From Desulfomonile tiedjei (GTDB lineage Bacteria; Desulfobacterota; Desulfomonilia; Desulfomonilales; Desulfomonilaceae), in assembly GCA_016218715.1 (NCBI GenBank), contig JACRDG010000048.1, positions 434,001 through 498,000 of the forward strand: a DNA stretch of 64,000 bases. Reading direction: 5' to 3'. A program made the position numbers and the translations under genes. Within the stretch, counting starts at the first letter, position 1. The number at the start of each line of letters is the position of its first letter. Positions 3,001 to 36,125 of this stretch are shown piece after piece. The notes beneath the pieces are model-generated. The model saw only the letters and a list, made by a program, of their open reading frames with translations, was not told where the DNA came from and made no database searches.

Positions 3001-3458
3001 CCAGCAGGATTTTCCGCCACCGAGCATCCGTACAACTGGATCTGTGCCTGGTCGCCGAGGTTATCAGCCAGCGCCTGCAGGTCGGGGTGGTGCGCGTCGA
3101 CGGTAGAGAGGTCGATCTGCTCGTTCCCTACGACCAGCTCACCGGGAGACCCATGAGCCACCACGGCCACCAGCCCAATCTTCCGCCCGGTCTCACGGGT
3201 CAGCTCTTCGAGTTTAGCCTCGATAGCAGCCAGGTTGTCGTGCTGGTCGTACAGCACGAGCTGTGCCTTCCCCGCCGCAGCGTCCGCGAGGACCCGGACG
3301 TCCGAGAACGTACTGGAAGCGACGATCACGTTCAAGTCGTGGTGCGTATCGAGCGAGCTGAGATCAAGGGAAGCGTCGAGCACGATCCGCTCCTCGAGTT
3401 GTTCGAAGATCAATTCAGGGTGATAGTACCTCGCGTTCCTATCGAGCCAACGACCCAT
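1..3458 (-). CDS. Giant surface/adhesin-like protein, N-terminal part (DUF4347 + ELWxxDGT repeats + cadherin-like modules)
   Basis: This reading frame is open from an ATG at 3458 to the left edge, so about 1150 N-terminal residues are seen and the C-terminus is missing. ATG 3458 follows GAGAGG at good spacing; an in-frame ATG at 3512 is the alternative. The N-terminus carries FEQLEERIVLDA (about residues 18-29), the LEPR-like head of large secreted adhesins. A DUF4347 domain follows (about 30-180), with AHGSPGEL near residue 99 and YGCSVAE near 143. Seven ELWxxDGT-type repeats (for example ELWKSDGT, ELWQTDGT) lie between about 2730 and 1540. Then come modules of about 255 residues (DNA period about 765 bp) with TDPDGD, DANTNNAIDAGEAV and YNGPDTVRYVVTDT, resembling cadherin/Ig-like adhesin repeats. 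A secreted or surface-bound role is inferred from the family; the ligand is unknown. Confidence 0.85.
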   Translation of the reverse strand, partial: MGRWLDRNARYYHPELIFEQLEERIVLDASLDLSSLDTHHDLNVIVASSTFSDVRVLADAAAGKAQLVLYDQHDNLAAIEAKLEELTRETGRKIGLVAVVAHGSPGELVVGNEQIDLSTVDAHHPDLQALADNLGDQAQIQLYGCSVAENPAGKALVDRIAAYTGADVFASTDATGGKAGNWSLEYASREAATPVAIFDAAALGNVGPLADPESLAPLSSDLYDSTLNKAFVEFNGEIYFSGSDSTSGMELRAYNPLTGITRLVTDIIPGPDSGGPLELSVMNGALYFVASDSPSAGGLWRTDGTDLGTELLAEFSKPGGLSALPFANLTAVNNVLFFSANDEVHGWELWKSDGTAAQTVMVEDLWPGADSGNPTVLTNGNGTLFFRAPSVDGYLWRSDGTAADTFPVRTDVLVRTDSLDPTDWDTFAVLNGEVYFTGEDTGGLYGRELWKSNGTTAGTVMVKDIQTGAGSGSPHYLTPVNGSLYFAANDGVNGEELWRSDGTTTGTALVENIGPGSQGNYPFNLTDVNGALLFISYDNALGDTLWRSDGTPGGTFMVADPSPVHYWTWWVQMMNVGGTANFVMDDAVHGIELWQTDGTAGGTSMVQDIWPGSSSASPIHMTNVNGTLYFFAQSSGLGYEPWRYVPGTTPNQPPVAGNFALNGAQGVAVPVDGWNFTDPDGDPAQSITVTNLPDRGTLFRDANTNNAIDAGEAVALNQVITWADASTSHLVKYVSTGAYIGPDAVQYLVTDTRGAIGTVAGTGSITVSDTVNDPPVNHFPPNQTILEDIVLVFSPGNGNAISISDSDAGTAVVQMQLSSANGTLTLAQTTGLAFSAGDGTSDSSVTFSGTIDAINTALNGMRFVPSPNYNGLGGGVTVFTNDLGHTGADGAKFDTDTLLVTVSAVQDPPVAGDFALYADAGTVVSLDGWTFTDPDGDQAQSITLTVLPQHGTLFRDANANNVIDAGEAVTLNQVISWADAETTPLVKYQSVAGYNGPDTVRYVVTDTAGTVGTVAGTVGIDVGDPVNDPPVNQVPSAQSTVQNAPLILSTGNGNALSISDPDAGTAPVQVRLTGANGTLSLAQTTGLTFSAGDGTADATMTFVGATDAINEALNGMTFTPVLNYSGSAANLIIFTDDLGNTGADGPKSDSDT

Positions 3459-28200: not shown

Positions 28201-29388
28201 ATGAAGACTATCAACTTGGATCACGTGGCAGCAGCGCCGCTCCTCCCGGAAGTGGTCGAGGCGATGATGCCTTTCTTGACGGGGAAGTTCGGGAACCCCT
28301 CGAGTATGCACAGTCTTGGCGAAGAGGTCACCGAGGCCATCGATGAGGCTCGCCGCCACGTTGCTCGGCTGATTAACGCAAAAGAACAGGAGATCGTCTT
28401 CACCTCGGGCGGCACCGAGTCAAATAATTGGGCCCTCAAAGGAGTGGTTCAGGCCAACCGTGCACGGGGAAATCACCTGATAACTTCTTCAATCGAACAT
28501 TTTTCCATCATGCACGCCATCAAGGCCCTTGAAAAACAAGGGGTCGAAGTGACGCGCCTTCCGGTGGACCAGTACGGAATCGTGGACCCATCAGACGTCG
28601 AACGAGCCATAACGCCGCAAACCGTTCTGATCTCCGTCATGCACGCGAATAATGAAGTCGGCTCGATCCAGCCGATCGAGGAAATCGGTAAGATAGCGCG
28701 TGCGCACAATATCCCGTTTCACACCGACGCGGTGGCCACTACGGGAGTGATCCCGGTCGATGTGGACACACTCAATGCGGACCTGCTCTCCTTGGCGGCC
28801 AATCCCTTCTACGGTCCTTTGGGGATCGGCGCGTTGTACGTGCGGAAAGGGATGAAGATTGCCCCCCTGCTGGACGGCGGAATTCAAGAAAGCGGGATGC
28901 GCGCTGGGACTGAAAACGTCCTGGGGATCATCGGTATGGGGAAAGCGGCTGAGATCGCGCTGACAGAGATGGATCGGCGCATCGCTCACCTGGTTCCCCT
29001 GCGAGACCGCCTCCTCAAAGGAATCCCGGCAACCATTGAAGATGTCGATGTCGTGGGTCATCCGACCCAGAGACTCCCCGGCAACGTCAGCGTGACGGTA
29101 CAATACGTCGAGGGAGAATCGATGTTGCTTTTTCTGGACATGGAGGGGATAAAGATAGCAAGTGGCTCGGCATGTATTTCCCGGACGCTCAAGGTCTCTC
29201 ACGTGATGCTGGCCATGGGGTGCGATGCCGCAACAGCGCAGGGCTCGCTGCTCTTCACGCTCGGGCAGGACAACACCTCCGAGGACGTGGAAGAGGTGCT
29301 GAAGGTCCTGCCCCCTGTTGTCCAGCGTTTGAGAGATATGTCTCCGCTCTACAAGAAAAAGGGCCCACATACGAAGGGCGTGGTCTGA
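28201..29388 (+). CDS. NifS/IscS-like protein lacking the PLP-binding lysine
   Basis: The 395-residue protein is a clear class V aminotransferase-fold relative of cysteine desulfurases: [70 protein letters not shown], and the cysteine loop [10 protein letters not shown] with C325. However, the lysine that forms the Schiff base with PLP is missing: the usual SxHKxxGPKG reads [12 protein letters not shown], with N201-P202 in place of His-Lys. The PLP-contacting Gln of the DAVQ motif is also replaced (TDAVATTG). It cannot work as a normal desulfurase but may still scaffold a cluster through C325, as proposed for Archaeoglobus fulgidus IscS, which also lacks this lysine. The IscU-like gene follows. 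Confidence 0.85.
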
Positions 29389-29645: not shown

Positions 29646-30131
29646 ATGTATAACGAAGTCGTAATGGACCATTTCAAGAATCCGCGGAACGTAGGGGAGA
29701 TCCCGGATGCAGACGGCGTGGGCGAGGTTGGGAATCCTGCGTGCGGCGATATCATGGCATTCTATATCAAAGTAAACGGGAACATCCTGGAAGACGTCAA
29801 ATATAAAACTTTCGGCTGTGGTGCAGCCATCGCCGTTGCCAGCATGGTGAGCGAACTGGCCAAAGGAAAGACCATCGACGAGGCCCTGAACATCACCAAC
29901 AAATCGGTGATCGAGGCCCTGAACGGCCTTCCCAAGAAGAAGCACCACTGCTCGAACCTGGGGGCCGATGCGCTCCACCGCGCCATCGAGGACTACCAGG
30001 CCAAGCTGCATGGGCAGAAATTCGCCAAGCCCGTGGACAGCGCTGAGGTGTGCAACTGCCCCATCTGCGACGTCACCGACCCGGAAGAGGCTCCCTACTG
30101 TTCGAGCGCGTGCGACCATTCCCACAAATAG
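29646..30131 (+). CDS. IscU/NifU-N-like Fe-S cluster scaffold with Cys-rich C-terminal tail
   Basis: The 161-residue protein has all scaffold ligands: C33 and D35 (GNPACGDIM), C58 (TFGCGAAIAVASM) and C102 (KKKHHCSNLGADAL). IscU proteins assemble [2Fe-2S] or [4Fe-4S] clusters on these residues and pass them to apoproteins. After the normal end near residue 128 it carries a tail with C-x-C-x2-C-x10-C-x3-C (EVCNCPICD...YCSSACDHSHK) that ordinary IscU lacks; it could bind a metal or cluster. AAAGGAG precedes ATG 29646. It follows the lysine-less NifS-like gene after 257 bases with a strong hairpin. Confidence 0.92.
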   Translation: MYNEVVMDHFKNPRNVGEIPDADGVGEVGNPACGDIMAFYIKVNGNILEDVKYKTFGCGAAIAVASMVSELAKGKTIDEALNITNKSVIEALNGLPKKKHHCSNLGADALHRAIEDYQAKLHGQKFAKPVDSAEVCNCPICDVTDPEEAPYCSSACDHSHK

Positions 30132-32391: not shown

Positions 32392-35300
32392 TCACGACTC
32401 GTCTTGGTCAGATCCGCCAAATTCCAAAATCATGTCCAGTAGCTCGCCATGCTCTGGAAACTTCTTCAGCCACAGCGAACGGAATTCGCCTTCTCCCACC
32501 TGGTCCTTGATATTGACAAGGGCTGCCATGATCGCGTCTTTGAGCTGCATTTGCCAGTCTACGGCTATGAGCAGCGCCTGTCCCAGCCGCATCAACGCTT
32601 CATCATACCGGCCTTGCGCAGCATGCAGCAGTCCGTACTGGGCAAGCGTATTGACGGATTGGGGCGGATGGCCGAGCCGTTCGTAGATTTCGAGAGCCTT
32701 TCGGTACCATTGCTCGGCGTCATCGAAGCGGTTTCGCTCCTGTGCCACTCTCCCCAACTGGTGGTACTCACCGGCGGCATCGTGCTCCAGGCCGAGCCGT
32801 TCGTAGATTTCGAGAGCCTTTCGGTACCATTGCTCGGCCTCATCGAAGCGGTTTCGCTCCTGTGCCACTCTCCCCAACTGGTGGTAGTCATTCGCGGTAT
32901 AGCGCTCCAGGCCGAGCCGTTCCTTAATCTCGAGAGCCTTTCGGTACCATTGCTCGGCCTCATCGAAGCGGTTTCTCTCCTCTGCCACTCTCCCCAACTG
33001 GTGGTAAACACGCGCGGCATCGCGCTTCAGGCCGAGCCGTTCGCAGATTTCGAGAGCCTTTCGGTACCATTGCTCGGCCTCATCGAAGCGGTTTCGCTCC
33101 TGTGCCACTATCCCCAACTGGTGGTAATCACCGGCGGCATCGCGCTCCAGGCCGAGCCGTTCTCGAATTTCGAGAGCCTTTCGATACCAGGCCTCAGCCT
33201 CATCGAAGCGGTTGCGCTCCTGGGCCACCATCCCCAACTGGTGGTAGGAGACGGCCATGTTCCCTTCGAGATCGGAGTCATTTAGCCCCTGATAATAGCC
33301 CAATATAATCAAATAGCGCTGTTCCGCGAGATCAAGGCTGTTTTGACGGAGCATCTCGTTGGCCTCGTTAAGGAGCAGGAAACACTGAAGATCCCCTCGA
33401 TCGCGTTCTTCTGCCCGGGGTCGTTCCCGGCCCATGCGACGGAGGAGGCTGCTGCGCAACCCGCCCCATTCCGCCGTGCGATTCGCGCCGTCATAAAATT
33501 CACCAAGCGTCTGAGCGAGCCATTGGACCGAATCCCAGTCATCAATGGCTTCAGCTAGGCGTAGGGCCCGAAGGAGGTTGGCCTCCTGGGCCGCGACCCA
33601 GTCCAGCGCGTCACGTTTCCGTTGCACGACTTCCTCGAGAACGGCCCGGGCAAAGCCTGCAAAGAACCGCATGAATTCCCGATCCAGTGCGGTCAATCCT
33701 TCCTGGCCAACTTGGGACACCAGATGCCGGCGGAGGAGAGCAGGAAGGGTCGGGTGAATCTCGTACAGGGATCCGCCAAGCGGCCGCAGCATCCCGCCGC
33801 GTGCAGCCTCTTCCAGCACCGATCCCCACGATTCACGATCGAGGGCCTCGCCCGCGATTTCCCGATAAGCAGGCAAATCATCACTTCCGCCTGCAAGCAG
33901 CGCCAGCATATCGAGAGACACTACACTCGAGAACAGGCCGACCGCGGGCAGGTGCTTCCTCGTCTTTTCCGACATCTGCGAAAACGCGTACTCGAAGGAC
34001 GCGTCCGCGAGCGATTCACCGAGATTGTCAACGCTTTCACGCAAAGATCGGACTATTTCCCCGGGCGATTTCGTCCTCAGGTGGGGGAGCACCACCTCCA
34101 AGGAGCGCGGATGGCCTGCAAGGAGTTTCACGAGTTCGTAGTAATCGGTGTCCGACCGGAAATCCTCCGGGCTTTTGCCGACCATGCCAAGGACCACCTT
34201 AGCCATGCTGGAGGCATCTTCAACGGTCAGGCCTTCCACCTCCAAAGCGTTGTACCCCACACCGAGCCAGCTCTCATCCCACTTGCGGCTCGTAACGATG
34301 ACCCGGCCCCTGCTGTTACTCAGTTCTTTTAGAAACCGGGAAAACTTCGCCCGATCCTCGTCCGATGAAAAGGGTTCCGCACCCTCCGGGTACCCGGCCA
34401 CAGTCTCGAAGTTGTCCCAGACGAGAAGACAGGGATTTTGACAGAGACGATCCAGTGCCGCGTCAAATTGCTCGTCGGGTGAAAGGCGGGAAAAATCGGT
34501 CGCGTATCCGAAAATGCTTCCCAATACTTGCCCAAAGGTCGCGTTTTCCTTGAAAGTCGTGACGTAAACCCCGCCAGGGCAGCCGCCGGTCTCCGCGAAC
34601 CACCGCCCAAAGCCGTGCGCCAGCTCGGTCTTGCCCGTCCCGCCGATACCGTGGATCAACAACCACGGGCGAGCATTGTCCCGCAATTTCCTCTCGATCC
34701 CCAACATCTCCCGGTCCCGGCCGATAAACCCGAATCGCCCTTCAGGGAGCGCCTCCTTGATGTGTTGTACGTACGTTTGCCTCTCGGCCCGCTCGTCCTC
34801 AGTGCAGGTACCGGCCCCCGTTGGGATCGGAATGAACCCCGACTCCTGCTGGTACAGGGTGGGCACCATCCAGTCCCGCAGAGGAAGCGGCCCGACCACG
34901 GATTCACGCCGCGGCTCGGTCAGCAAGCATTTTCGTCCTTCGGCCACCGCCTCTGACAGCGCGGCATGGTTGACGAGCCGGTCGTAGAAGGATTTCATGA
35001 ACAGAGCGGTGGTATCCGAATGGACAGAGTACGACATACCCAACACGCCCCTCGCGCCCACCGCAATCATCTGGGATGCCACCGAACCGAACGGCTCGAC
35101 CTCACCCTCTTCCGAGGACTGGCACGCGCTGAAGACGAACAGCGGCACCCGGCAGTTGGTGAGGACCTCCGCAAGGTCCCGGCTGCTCACCAGGTTGCCG
35201 TCACCCTCCACCGTCTCGAAGAGAAGGTATCCGGTATCCGGTCTCATTGCGCTCGCCTTGCCCGCTGAGGACTTCCGCATGACCCCGTGCCCATCGAACT

Positions 35301-35979
35301 GAACGAGGTGATAGTACCCGGGTTGGTCGGTAAGCCGCTGGCGCAGCGCATCAAAGGTCGGAGGGCGTAGTACGTCGAGCTGGACCCCTGGCATGAAGGG
35401 CCGCAGGACTTCCAGCATCGGTCTGGCATCCGAGCGCACTGAAATGGCGTCGTCTATCTTGCGCGCGATGACGAGCAGAATGCGAAAAGGGCCTTTGATT
35501 TCATAGGGAGGCGGAACGGCAAGGGCATGAGCGGATCGCTGGCGATACAGTCCAGCCAAAGAAAAACCCAGATACCCGCGCCCTGGCGTGGAATCACGCA
35601 ATAATTCCCAGGGGATATTGAGGAAAACCGGGTCGTCCGAGGCGATGCACAACTCGCATTGGTCGAGCCCGTCTTGAACCGCTTGATGGAAAAAACCCCG
35701 AGGGTCCGGGTCGGAATTGCCCTTGATGAAGACCTGCTCGAACAGGCGCGCCCCCCACTTCTCCATCTTCAACTCGATCGCGGCAGCCCGATCCTGATAC
35801 GCGCCGTACGGATACCTGAGATACTCCTCCAAGTACCAACGGAGATCCTTGCGGTCCTGCCGCGACAGCGGATCGGAAAAGGGAACGGGCTCGGGGTACT
35901 GTCTCAGGGCATTCCCCCGCTGCCACGAGACTTGAACGGTACCGTCCGTCAGGTCCTCAATTCGCAGGATGTTTCTCAT
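32392..35979 (-). CDS. CHAT protease - STAND/NB-ARC-like NTPase - TPR protein
   Basis: The 1195-residue protein has three parts. The N-terminal CHAT (caspase-like) peptidase domain carries the expected His (FDGHGV, about residue 230) and Cys (FVFSACQSSEE, about 285). The middle STAND NTPase has a P-loop (HGIGGTGKTELAHGF, about 446), Walker B (CLLVWDNFET, about 522), sensor-like VIVTSRKW and a winged-helix-like segment. The C-terminal third has TPRs; five consecutive 40-residue units (QERNRFDEAEQWYRKALEI...) are nearly identical even at DNA level. ATG 35979 follows GGGAGGGG; a longer frame to 36057 runs into repeat DNA. Such proteins act as signal-triggered proteases in bacterial immunity and cell death; the trigger and target here are unknown and no partner gene is obvious. 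Confidence 0.88.
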   Translation of the reverse strand: MRNILRIEDLTDGTVQVSWQRGNALRQYPEPVPFSDPLSRQDRKDLRWYLEEYLRYPYGAYQDRAAAIELKMEKWGARLFEQVFIKGNSDPDPRGFFHQAVQDGLDQCELCIASDDPVFLNIPWELLRDSTPGRGYLGFSLAGLYRQRSAHALAVPPPYEIKGPFRILLVIARKIDDAISVRSDARPMLEVLRPFMPGVQLDVLRPPTFDALRQRLTDQPGYYHLVQFDGHGVMRKSSAGKASAMRPDTGYLLFETVEGDGNLVSSRDLAEVLTNCRVPLFVFSACQSSEEGEVEPFGSVASQMIAVGARGVLGMSYSVHSDTTALFMKSFYDRLVNHAALSEAVAEGRKCLLTEPRRESVVGPLPLRDWMVPTLYQQESGFIPIPTGAGTCTEDERAERQTYVQHIKEALPEGRFGFIGRDREMLGIERKLRDNARPWLLIHGIGGTGKTELAHGFGRWFAETGGCPGGVYVTTFKENATFGQVLGSIFGYATDFSRLSPDEQFDAALDRLCQNPCLLVWDNFETVAGYPEGAEPFSSDEDRAKFSRFLKELSNSRGRVIVTSRKWDESWLGVGYNALEVEGLTVEDASSMAKVVLGMVGKSPEDFRSDTDYYELVKLLAGHPRSLEVVLPHLRTKSPGEIVRSLRESVDNLGESLADASFEYAFSQMSEKTRKHLPAVGLFSSVVSLDMLALLAGGSDDLPAYREIAGEALDRESWGSVLEEAARGGMLRPLGGSLYEIHPTLPALLRRHLVSQVGQEGLTALDREFMRFFAGFARAVLEEVVQRKRDALDWVAAQEANLLRALRLAEAIDDWDSVQWLAQTLGEFYDGANRTAEWGGLRSSLLRRMGRERPRAEERDRGDLQCFLLLNEANEMLRQNSLDLAEQRYLIILGYYQGLNDSDLEGNMAVSYHQLGMVAQERNRFDEAEAWYRKALEIRERLGLERDAAGDYHQLGIVAQERNRFDEAEQWYRKALEICERLGLKRDAARVYHQLGRVAEERNRFDEAEQWYRKALEIKERLGLERYTANDYHQLGRVAQERNRFDEAEQWYRKALEIYERLGLEHDAAGEYHQLGRVAQERNRFDDAEQWYRKALEIYERLGHPPQSVNTLAQYGLLHAAQGRYDEALMRLGQALLIAVDWQMQLKDAIMAALVNIKDQVGEGEFRSLWLKKFPEHGELLDMILEFGGSDQDES
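32690..33260. repeat. Tandem 120-bp DNA repeats encoding TPRs
   Basis: Five consecutive 120-bp units start near 32701, 32821, 32941, 33061 and 33181. Most differ at only a few positions, many of them third codon positions or within one short variable patch. The outermost unit (33181) is the most diverged. Each encodes one 40-residue TPR-like unit of the CHAT protein. Confidence 0.9.
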
Positions 35980-36049
35980 TGCCCCTCCCGGAAGGTCGCA
36001 GTGGACCGAGGTACAGGACGCAGGCGTCCCGCCTGTCATTTCCTCATGG

Positions 36050-36125
36050 ACCGGCAAGATGCCGGCCCCAGTGAACAGGCAAGGCTAGGTGCCCCAAGGG
36101 AGACACCGTACTGACGAAAAGGCGT
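36050..36125. repeat. Dispersed palindromic repeat, type B, inverted copy
   Basis: ACCGGCAAGATGCCGGC (36050-36066) followed by CCCAGTGAACAGGCAAGG and CAAGGGAGACACCGTA, matching the copies at 10044 (inverted) and 23056. Confidence 0.7.

Follow-up and report, generated by a model that had tools for sequence, protein, structure and literature searches.

A predicted non-catalytic IscS-like protein adjoining IscU in Desulfomonile tiedjei and its homologues lacking the PLP lysine

The sulfur source for the iron-sulfur clusters of anaerobes is an open question, and the annotation 'cysteine desulfurase' is easily taken as proof of a cysteine route. In E. coli, sulfur flows from IscS to TusA and from there to the DsrE-like TusBCD. 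Two papers describe IscS as the donor of sulfur to both IscU and TusA (PMC11302665, PMC2854127), and the E. coli enzyme carries the residues H104, D180, Q183, K206 and C328 (PMC9978102). The IscS of Archaeoglobus fulgidus (AfIscS) has Asp at the place of the lysine, and according to two papers it has no desulfurase activity, while its cysteine ligates the cluster on IscU (PMC7585200, PMC9769115). Structures of A. fulgidus IscS2 are available (4eb5, 4eb7, 4hvk, and 4r5f for the D199K mutant), and its motifs read HIDATAS and SSNDIYGP.

Here, a stretch of 64,000 nucleotides of Desulfomonile tiedjei DNA (the window) was analyzed, which harbors an iscS-like gene followed by iscU. Homologues with or without the PLP Schiff-base lysine at window position 202 are referred to as Lys+ and Lys-, respectively. 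We consider it fairly probable (about 0.75) that the window protein is a non-catalytic IscS of the AfIscS kind that works in a complex with IscU, the sulfur arriving either as sulfide or as sulfane sulfur on a carrier.

The window protein and its IscU partner

The iscS-like gene (28201..29388, + strand) encodes a protein of 395 aa with the IscS/NifS fold, which is predicted from its lost active-site residues to be catalytically dead. Residues were assigned by alignment to a Lys+ solved chain and by comparison with A. fulgidus IscS. The sequence-only reading had claimed that N201-P202 replaces the His-Lys motif, that the PLP-contacting Gln is Ala and that the catalytic cysteine loop and the TESNN, EH and NNEVG motifs are kept, all of which was borne out. 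N201-P202 (28801..28806, +) lies within residues 199-208 of the translation, at the place where His-Lys is expected, and the Schiff-base lysine is absent. In the stretch H174-T-D176-A-V-A179-T (HTDAVAT, residues 174-180; 28720..28740, +) the pocket Asp is retained and Gln is replaced by Ala179 (codon 28735-28737). The loop SGSACIS carries Cys325 (29173..29175, +), the persulfide or cluster-ligand cysteine, and TESNN, EH99-100 and NNEVG are retained in comparison with the homologues. As an account of the active-site losses, the reading was right about Lys, His and Gln, but it missed that the conserved Arg351 is replaced by Leu (29251..29253, +). This Arg is invariant among the collected Lys+ homologues and we take it to bind the substrate carboxylate; the His and Thr of the PLP site are presumably phosphate contacts. 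Because the Schiff-base lysine, the PLP-contacting Gln and Arg351 are all lost, the protein would not be expected to cut cysteine.

A lysine hidden by a sequencing error had been named as the finding that would overturn this assignment. The site is non-Lys in 12 of 12 distinct orthologues of 73-83% identity (L009-L014, L091-L094, L099, L100) and, clade-wide, in 112 of 221 full-length homologues, which rules out a sequencing error or frameshift.

The predicted structure of the window protein has the IscS fold (mean pLDDT 87.2; below 50 in the cysteine loop, residues 323-330). With VIA-align, the model superposed on 4eb5, the A. fulgidus IscS-IscU complex, with Z 50.6 at 1.8 A over 372 residues and 46% identity. 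Z was as high or higher with active desulfurases (53.2 for human NFS1 and 51.3 for E. coli IscS, at 40% identity), so the fold alone cannot single out AfIscS. The best NCBIfam match was TIGR03402 NifS with 503.5 bits, below its cut-off of 530.75; the score for TIGR02006 (390.2 vs 643.2 bits) and that for NF010611 were likewise below cut-off, and among the 25 families listed only the subfamily model NF002806 was passed (309.2 vs 304). From the features of a desulfurase, the window protein thus has the IscS/NifS fold and the cysteine loop, and lacks the His-Lys motif and a score above an equivalog cut-off. Of the features of the AfIscS type, a replaced lysine, a retained cysteine and an adjoining IscU with its ligands were found.

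This iscU (29646..30131, +; 161 aa) lies 257 bp downstream of iscS, a spacing that does not in itself establish co-transcription. It was assigned by Pfam and by TIGR03419 (193.5 bits, cut-off 187.9), and its ligands C33, D35, C58 and C102 are all retained. A cysteine-rich C-terminal tail, CNCPIC...YC...C (30006..30128, +), extends outside the Pfam NifU_N match (residues 1-120).

The proposed pairing with IscU extended to the homologues. In a count restricted to genes flanked by 1.4 kb or more on each side, 66/74 Lys- genes had a same-strand IscU no further than 1.2 kb away (none at the other 8/74), compared with 53/95 Lys+ genes. The Cys/Asp/Cys/Cys ligands were complete in 66 of 71 IscU copies near Lys- genes; the five exceptions are two copies from an adjoining Lys+ unit, two that are parts of a single split alignment, and an odd second copy. 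A tailed IscU as constant partner did not hold up, as tails vary: the IscU of L018 is tailless, and L356 has a separate Zn-ribbon-like ORF of 61 aa (3206-3391, -) in the interval between iscU and dsrE that resembles the cysteine-rich tail of the window IscU.

Several further observations were made on gene arrangement. In one Lys- subgroup (L208-L211, L223-L229, L234) iscU precedes iscS and the cysteine loop, where covered, reads TRSACA or TKSACA and not SGSACT; a ThiS-like gene lies near the Lys- genes of L223-L225. The Lys+ IscS of Methanolobus (L070, L076, L084, L086) adjoins an IscU in which the first ligand Cys is replaced by Asp (GSTxDGD), and M. acetivorans IscU3 has His at the first ligand position according to the literature. 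Elsewhere in the window, an ORF of 1221 aa (32392-36057, -) has a start that by eye is CHAT-like and NTPase-like, and contains many near-identical TPR-like repeats (HQLGxVAQERNRFDEAEQWYRKALEI).

Linked residue losses, distribution and phylogeny of Lys- proteins

Homologues were gathered by protein similarity, by locus position and by the DNA pattern HxDA[VTIA][AS] followed by YGP. Matches of fewer than 320 query residues, those with a stop within the alignment and identical copies were left out, which gave 221 full-length proteins, AfIscS and E. coli IscS included, in a set enriched for Lys- by the DNA-pattern searches (112 Lys-, 109 Lys+). The stop filter removed one Methanolobus protein, which was restored for the later trees. 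Gln, His, Arg at 351 and Cys were each found in 109/109 Lys+ proteins. Among the 112 Lys- proteins, Gln was present in none, Arg in none (with one gap) and His in 14, and Cys was retained in 111, the remaining one being a gap. As the DNA pattern requires a non-Gln codon at 179, an unbiased view of the Gln loss comes only from the similarity hits, where 29 Lys- proteins showed Gln in 0, Arg in 1 (one not covered) and Cys in 29, and 87/87 Lys+ proteins had Gln, His, Arg and Cys. Two exceptions to the linkage were observed: L396, a Lys+ protein from the Tumebacillus class, has Ala at 179, and the Lys- Methanolobus protein (L177/L364) retains Arg. The lysine is replaced by Gln in 53 of the 112 proteins, by Asp in 23, by Pro in 13, by Asn in 11 and by others in the rest, and P202 is just one among these many replacements.

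Evidence against complete inactivity comes from the PLP pocket, which is partly intact: D176 and H100 were each found in 112/112 Lys- proteins and Thr at T237 in 102/112. Lys- proteins may therefore bind a PLP-like ligand and support some residual chemistry.

The missing catalytic residues, together with the intact paralogues that exist, might also be expected of a decaying paralogue without function. We regard this as very improbable. In all 15 pairs among six close copies pN/pS was 0.11-0.21 (dS being saturated except in one pair), which rules out a pseudogene and shows that the dead IscS gene is under purifying selection; the near-complete retention of Cys, the neighboring IscU with its ligands and the breadth of the clade likewise speak against decay.

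Counts of genomes with the pattern are lower bounds, as G050 and G052 carry a Lys- protein (L112, L115) and were yet unmatched. In the phylum of the window, 51/395 genomes matched, of which 47 read as non-Lys IscS and four (G412, G127, G130, G353) are chance matches by eye. In the class of G420, a Dehalococcoidia MAG, 50/294 genomes matched; 28 of 30 loci inspected are Lys- IscS, while the other matches were judged from the matched letters only and G669, G492 and G712 were taken as chance. Matches were obtained in 23/196 genomes of the phylum of a Methanolobus, where all 24 loci are Lys- with Asp, and in 4/145 genomes of the phylum of an Omnitrophota MAG, with three of the four loci Lys-. In the class of a Tumebacillus 3/299 genomes matched the pattern and none had a Lys- protein (0/299). 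The groups that carry Lys- proteins are, as we assume, anaerobic.

For phylogenetic analysis the active-site columns were masked, and 115 rows were used, each less than 72% identical to the rows already retained, plus must-haves. The free tree showed two changes of the Lys state, with an AfIscS-type group (10 rows) apart from the window-type group (38 rows). This topology, and with it a separate origin for each Lys- group, was unsupported in the AU test: on 105 rows (after removal of 10 long or odd ones), the constraint of a single Lys- clade including AfIscS reached a higher likelihood with a p-AU of 0.976. A single origin that includes AfIscS is thus compatible with this test and favored by it, and the proposed relationship to AfIscS is in line with this result without being proved. 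In the Methanolobus protein L364, Lys is replaced by Thr, Gln by His and EH by ED. In a quick tree of 86 rows it was placed, without support, among Lys+ rows, and one Lys- clade including it gave a p-AU of 0.836 and was not rejected either; L364 may have lost the lysine separately, but it was therefore not counted as an independent origin.

TusA- and DsrE-like neighbors and possible sulfur routes

Clustering of the genes neighboring the collected loci revealed families of TusA-like and DsrE-like proteins. Copies without 1.4 kb on each side or with less than 38% identity to the window protein were left out of the context counts. In a first count within 3.5 kb, TusA was found at 16/49 Lys- vs 1/54 Lys+ loci and DsrE at 12/49 vs 0/54, while Rrf2/IscR-like genes were found at 2/49 vs 23/54. 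In a larger count on the same strand within 3.5 kb, TusA was found at 35/74 Lys- vs 2/95 Lys+ loci, DsrE at 23/74 vs 0/95 and Rrf2/IscR-like genes at 3/74 vs 34/95, the carrier profiles having been built from Lys- neighbors, so that divergent carriers beside Lys+ genes may escape. The two Lys+ loci with TusA are L360, which has a Lys- unit on the same contig, and L111, where the match reads as a longer TusA-domain protein. Thirteen loci (archaeal L383-L394, all 12 of which show the signal, and L364) were added after the signal was known; without them TusA remains at 22/61, DsrE at 15/61 and either carrier at 24/61 Lys- loci. Pfam confirmed TusA (PF01206) in three and DsrE/DrsE_2 in four of the proteins tested, and the cysteine of the CP motif is retained in the TusA sequences inspected. 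Two gene orders occur, iscS-iscU-dsrE-tusA (10 loci) and tusA-dsrE-iscS-iscU (9 loci), and the divergent Lys- locus of Methanolobus (L364) has the latter order.

These data suggest that TusA and DsrE supply persulfide sulfur to the dead IscS, whose cysteine would receive it and pass it on to IscU, the reverse of the flow in E. coli; we put this relay at somewhat short of even odds. The paucity of Rrf2/IscR-like genes near Lys- loci fits with it as well. On the other side, either carrier was found at 37/74 Lys- loci and the other 37, that of the window included, have neither nearby, and TusA and DsrE may act in another pathway. Fisher p values overstate the association, as the profiles derive from Lys- neighbors and the rows are related. 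The TusA/DsrE state changes five times over 62 tree rows, but Lys- may have a single origin, and the 1-2 pairs that are independent with respect to the Lys state give a phylogenetic test of the association no power.

The sequence-only reading had proposed external sulfide as the source, in line with the AfIscS model, in which the cluster forms from Fe2+ and environmental sulfide and IscS contributes a cysteine ligand only. Sulfide supplies the sulfur in M. maripaludis and for SMS (PMC7585200, PMC12192291), and in E. coli deleted for iscS, H2S feeds IscU anaerobically (PMC13015791); as the latter occurs without IscS, a platform supplied with sulfide would be chemically sound. The occurrence of Lys- proteins in groups that we take to be anaerobic, and the lack of any such protein among the pattern matches in the 299 genomes of the Tumebacillus class, are consistent with free sulfide. 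It leaves unexplained, however, why TusA and DsrE genes lie beside a large share of Lys- loci, and these genes agree no less well with a persulfide relay. We therefore retain sulfide as a rival route, possible though clearly below even odds; for the clade as a whole the gene neighborhoods make a TusA/DsrE carrier route slightly more likely than free sulfide.

As a third possibility, sulfur could be donated by a Lys+ desulfurase present in the cell, which might join a mixed complex. The sequence-only reading had asked for a second, intact IscS in the genome, and intact desulfurase-like genes are indeed present: Lys+ proteins are encoded by a NifU-NifS pair (C67) and an orphan IscS-like gene (C86), and by eye a class-V SufS-like ORF (C48) lies among xanthine-dehydrogenase-like genes. 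With intact desulfurases and a NifU-NifS pair in the genome, the iscS-iscU pair of the window could be dispensable. Such a donor would also fit three tandems in the class of G420 (L027 6001-9491; L357 3537-6750; L358 644-4085), in which a Lys+ iscS, an iscU that has lost the first Cys and the Asp, a Lys- iscS and an intact iscU follow one another, so that the losses are complementary. The tandem is confined to these three loci, though, and genomes that show the Lys- protein alone, several of them with a near-whole-genome contig, argue against the donor. On balance this source seems unlikely.

These genomes emerged from a survey of 80 of the 100 Lys- genomes first listed. A Lys+ DNA pattern matched in 57/80; five matches were chance-like, each of these genomes having another match. 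Among the 23 remaining, Lys+ proteins were recovered with PF00266 (E up to 1e-12) from eight Desulfobacterota genomes of the window's phylum, from G596 and from G815, which overturned the absence of a desulfurase suggested there by the pattern. In 13/80 genomes (G676, G703, G640, G600 and G611 of the G420 class, and eight archaeal genomes) no Lys+ desulfurase was recognised by the pattern followed by PF00266 at E up to 1e-12, where L349-L352 were read by eye as other aminotransferases and weaker archaeal PF00266 matches were left out. Some of the 13 may be incomplete; in G640, G839, G746, G854, G756 and G765 a contig spans approximately the whole genome. In all 13 the Lys- locus carries TusA and/or DsrE, which favors the relay.

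A separate observation concerns C108 of the window genome (G000; L126 4054-8067), a Lys+ ORF of 1337 aa that reads as a molybdopterin oxidoreductase-NifS fusion, with the intact (His-Lys) NifS-like part at the C-terminus of the oxidoreductase. Many relatives have open frames of ~1130-1190 aa at the NifS-like matches, and a Mo enzyme that supplies its own sulfur would be plausible.

Returning to the non-catalytic IscS that we prefer for the window, we infer from sequence its inactivity, its complex with IscU, cluster ligation and the sulfur source. The dead IscS would keep its fold and its cysteine loop and form the IscS-IscU complex, in which Cys325 may reach the IscU site and there either act as fourth ligand of the cluster or carry a persulfide that was formed elsewhere. 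With a protein unable to cut cysteine, sulfur would have to enter as sulfide or as carrier-borne sulfane sulfur. No tusA or dsrE was detected with the carrier profiles on the same strand within 3.5 kb of the window iscS; TusA-domain matches lie elsewhere in its genome (C8, C23), and the window pair may use either route. Only as a tentative and rather doubtful extension do we suggest that in many anaerobic bacteria and archaea this branch of ISC has given up cysteine as its source: the cysteine of a dead IscS would be loaded with sulfane sulfur by TusA and DsrE, and this IscS, a receiver and docking platform and not a desulfurase, would hand the sulfur to IscU. On this view the window would represent a branch with the carriers outside the operon.

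Significance and comparison with known systems

The 112 Lys- proteins should not be assumed to be desulfurases, and annotating them as such would mislead metabolic models. Cells with a dead IscS may feed cluster assembly with sulfur that IscS has not cut from cysteine, and genomes that show the dead form alone are natural test cases. Through the TusA-DsrE linkage, what was a structural peculiarity of a single archaeon becomes a pathway that can be tested. The window gene is probably a member of the AfIscS kind, which was previously known from archaea, and its clade is a variant of this kind by its spread among bacteria, the loss of a third residue, the complementary tandem and the TusA-DsrE linkage; a search of the open-licence literature found no description of any of these four, and thus no earlier link of a Lys- IscS with TusA or DsrE.

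Like E. coli IscS (TIGR02006) and NifS (TIGR03402), the window protein has the fold, the cysteine loop and several pocket residues; unlike them, it lacks Lys, Gln and Arg and stays below the curated cut-offs. M. acetivorans IscS1 (MA0808, from the literature) and Methanolobus L364 resemble it in the lost lysine, the retained Cys and the adjoining IscU, whereas L364 differs in its retained Arg351, in ED for EH and in the tusA-dsrE genes in front. With A. fulgidus IscS2 the window protein shares the replacement of Lys, His, Gln and Arg351, the retained Cys and the IscU partner, at 46-47% identity over the superposition (Z about 50.6). It differs from IscS2 in having Pro and not Asp at the lysine site, in being bacterial and in its genome with intact desulfurases. 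The window has neither dsrE nor tusA alongside, whereas at L361, whose IscS is very closely related to A. fulgidus IscS2, dsrE lies immediately upstream, and the genome of L361 contains a second Lys- iscSU (L383) with tusA and dsrE.
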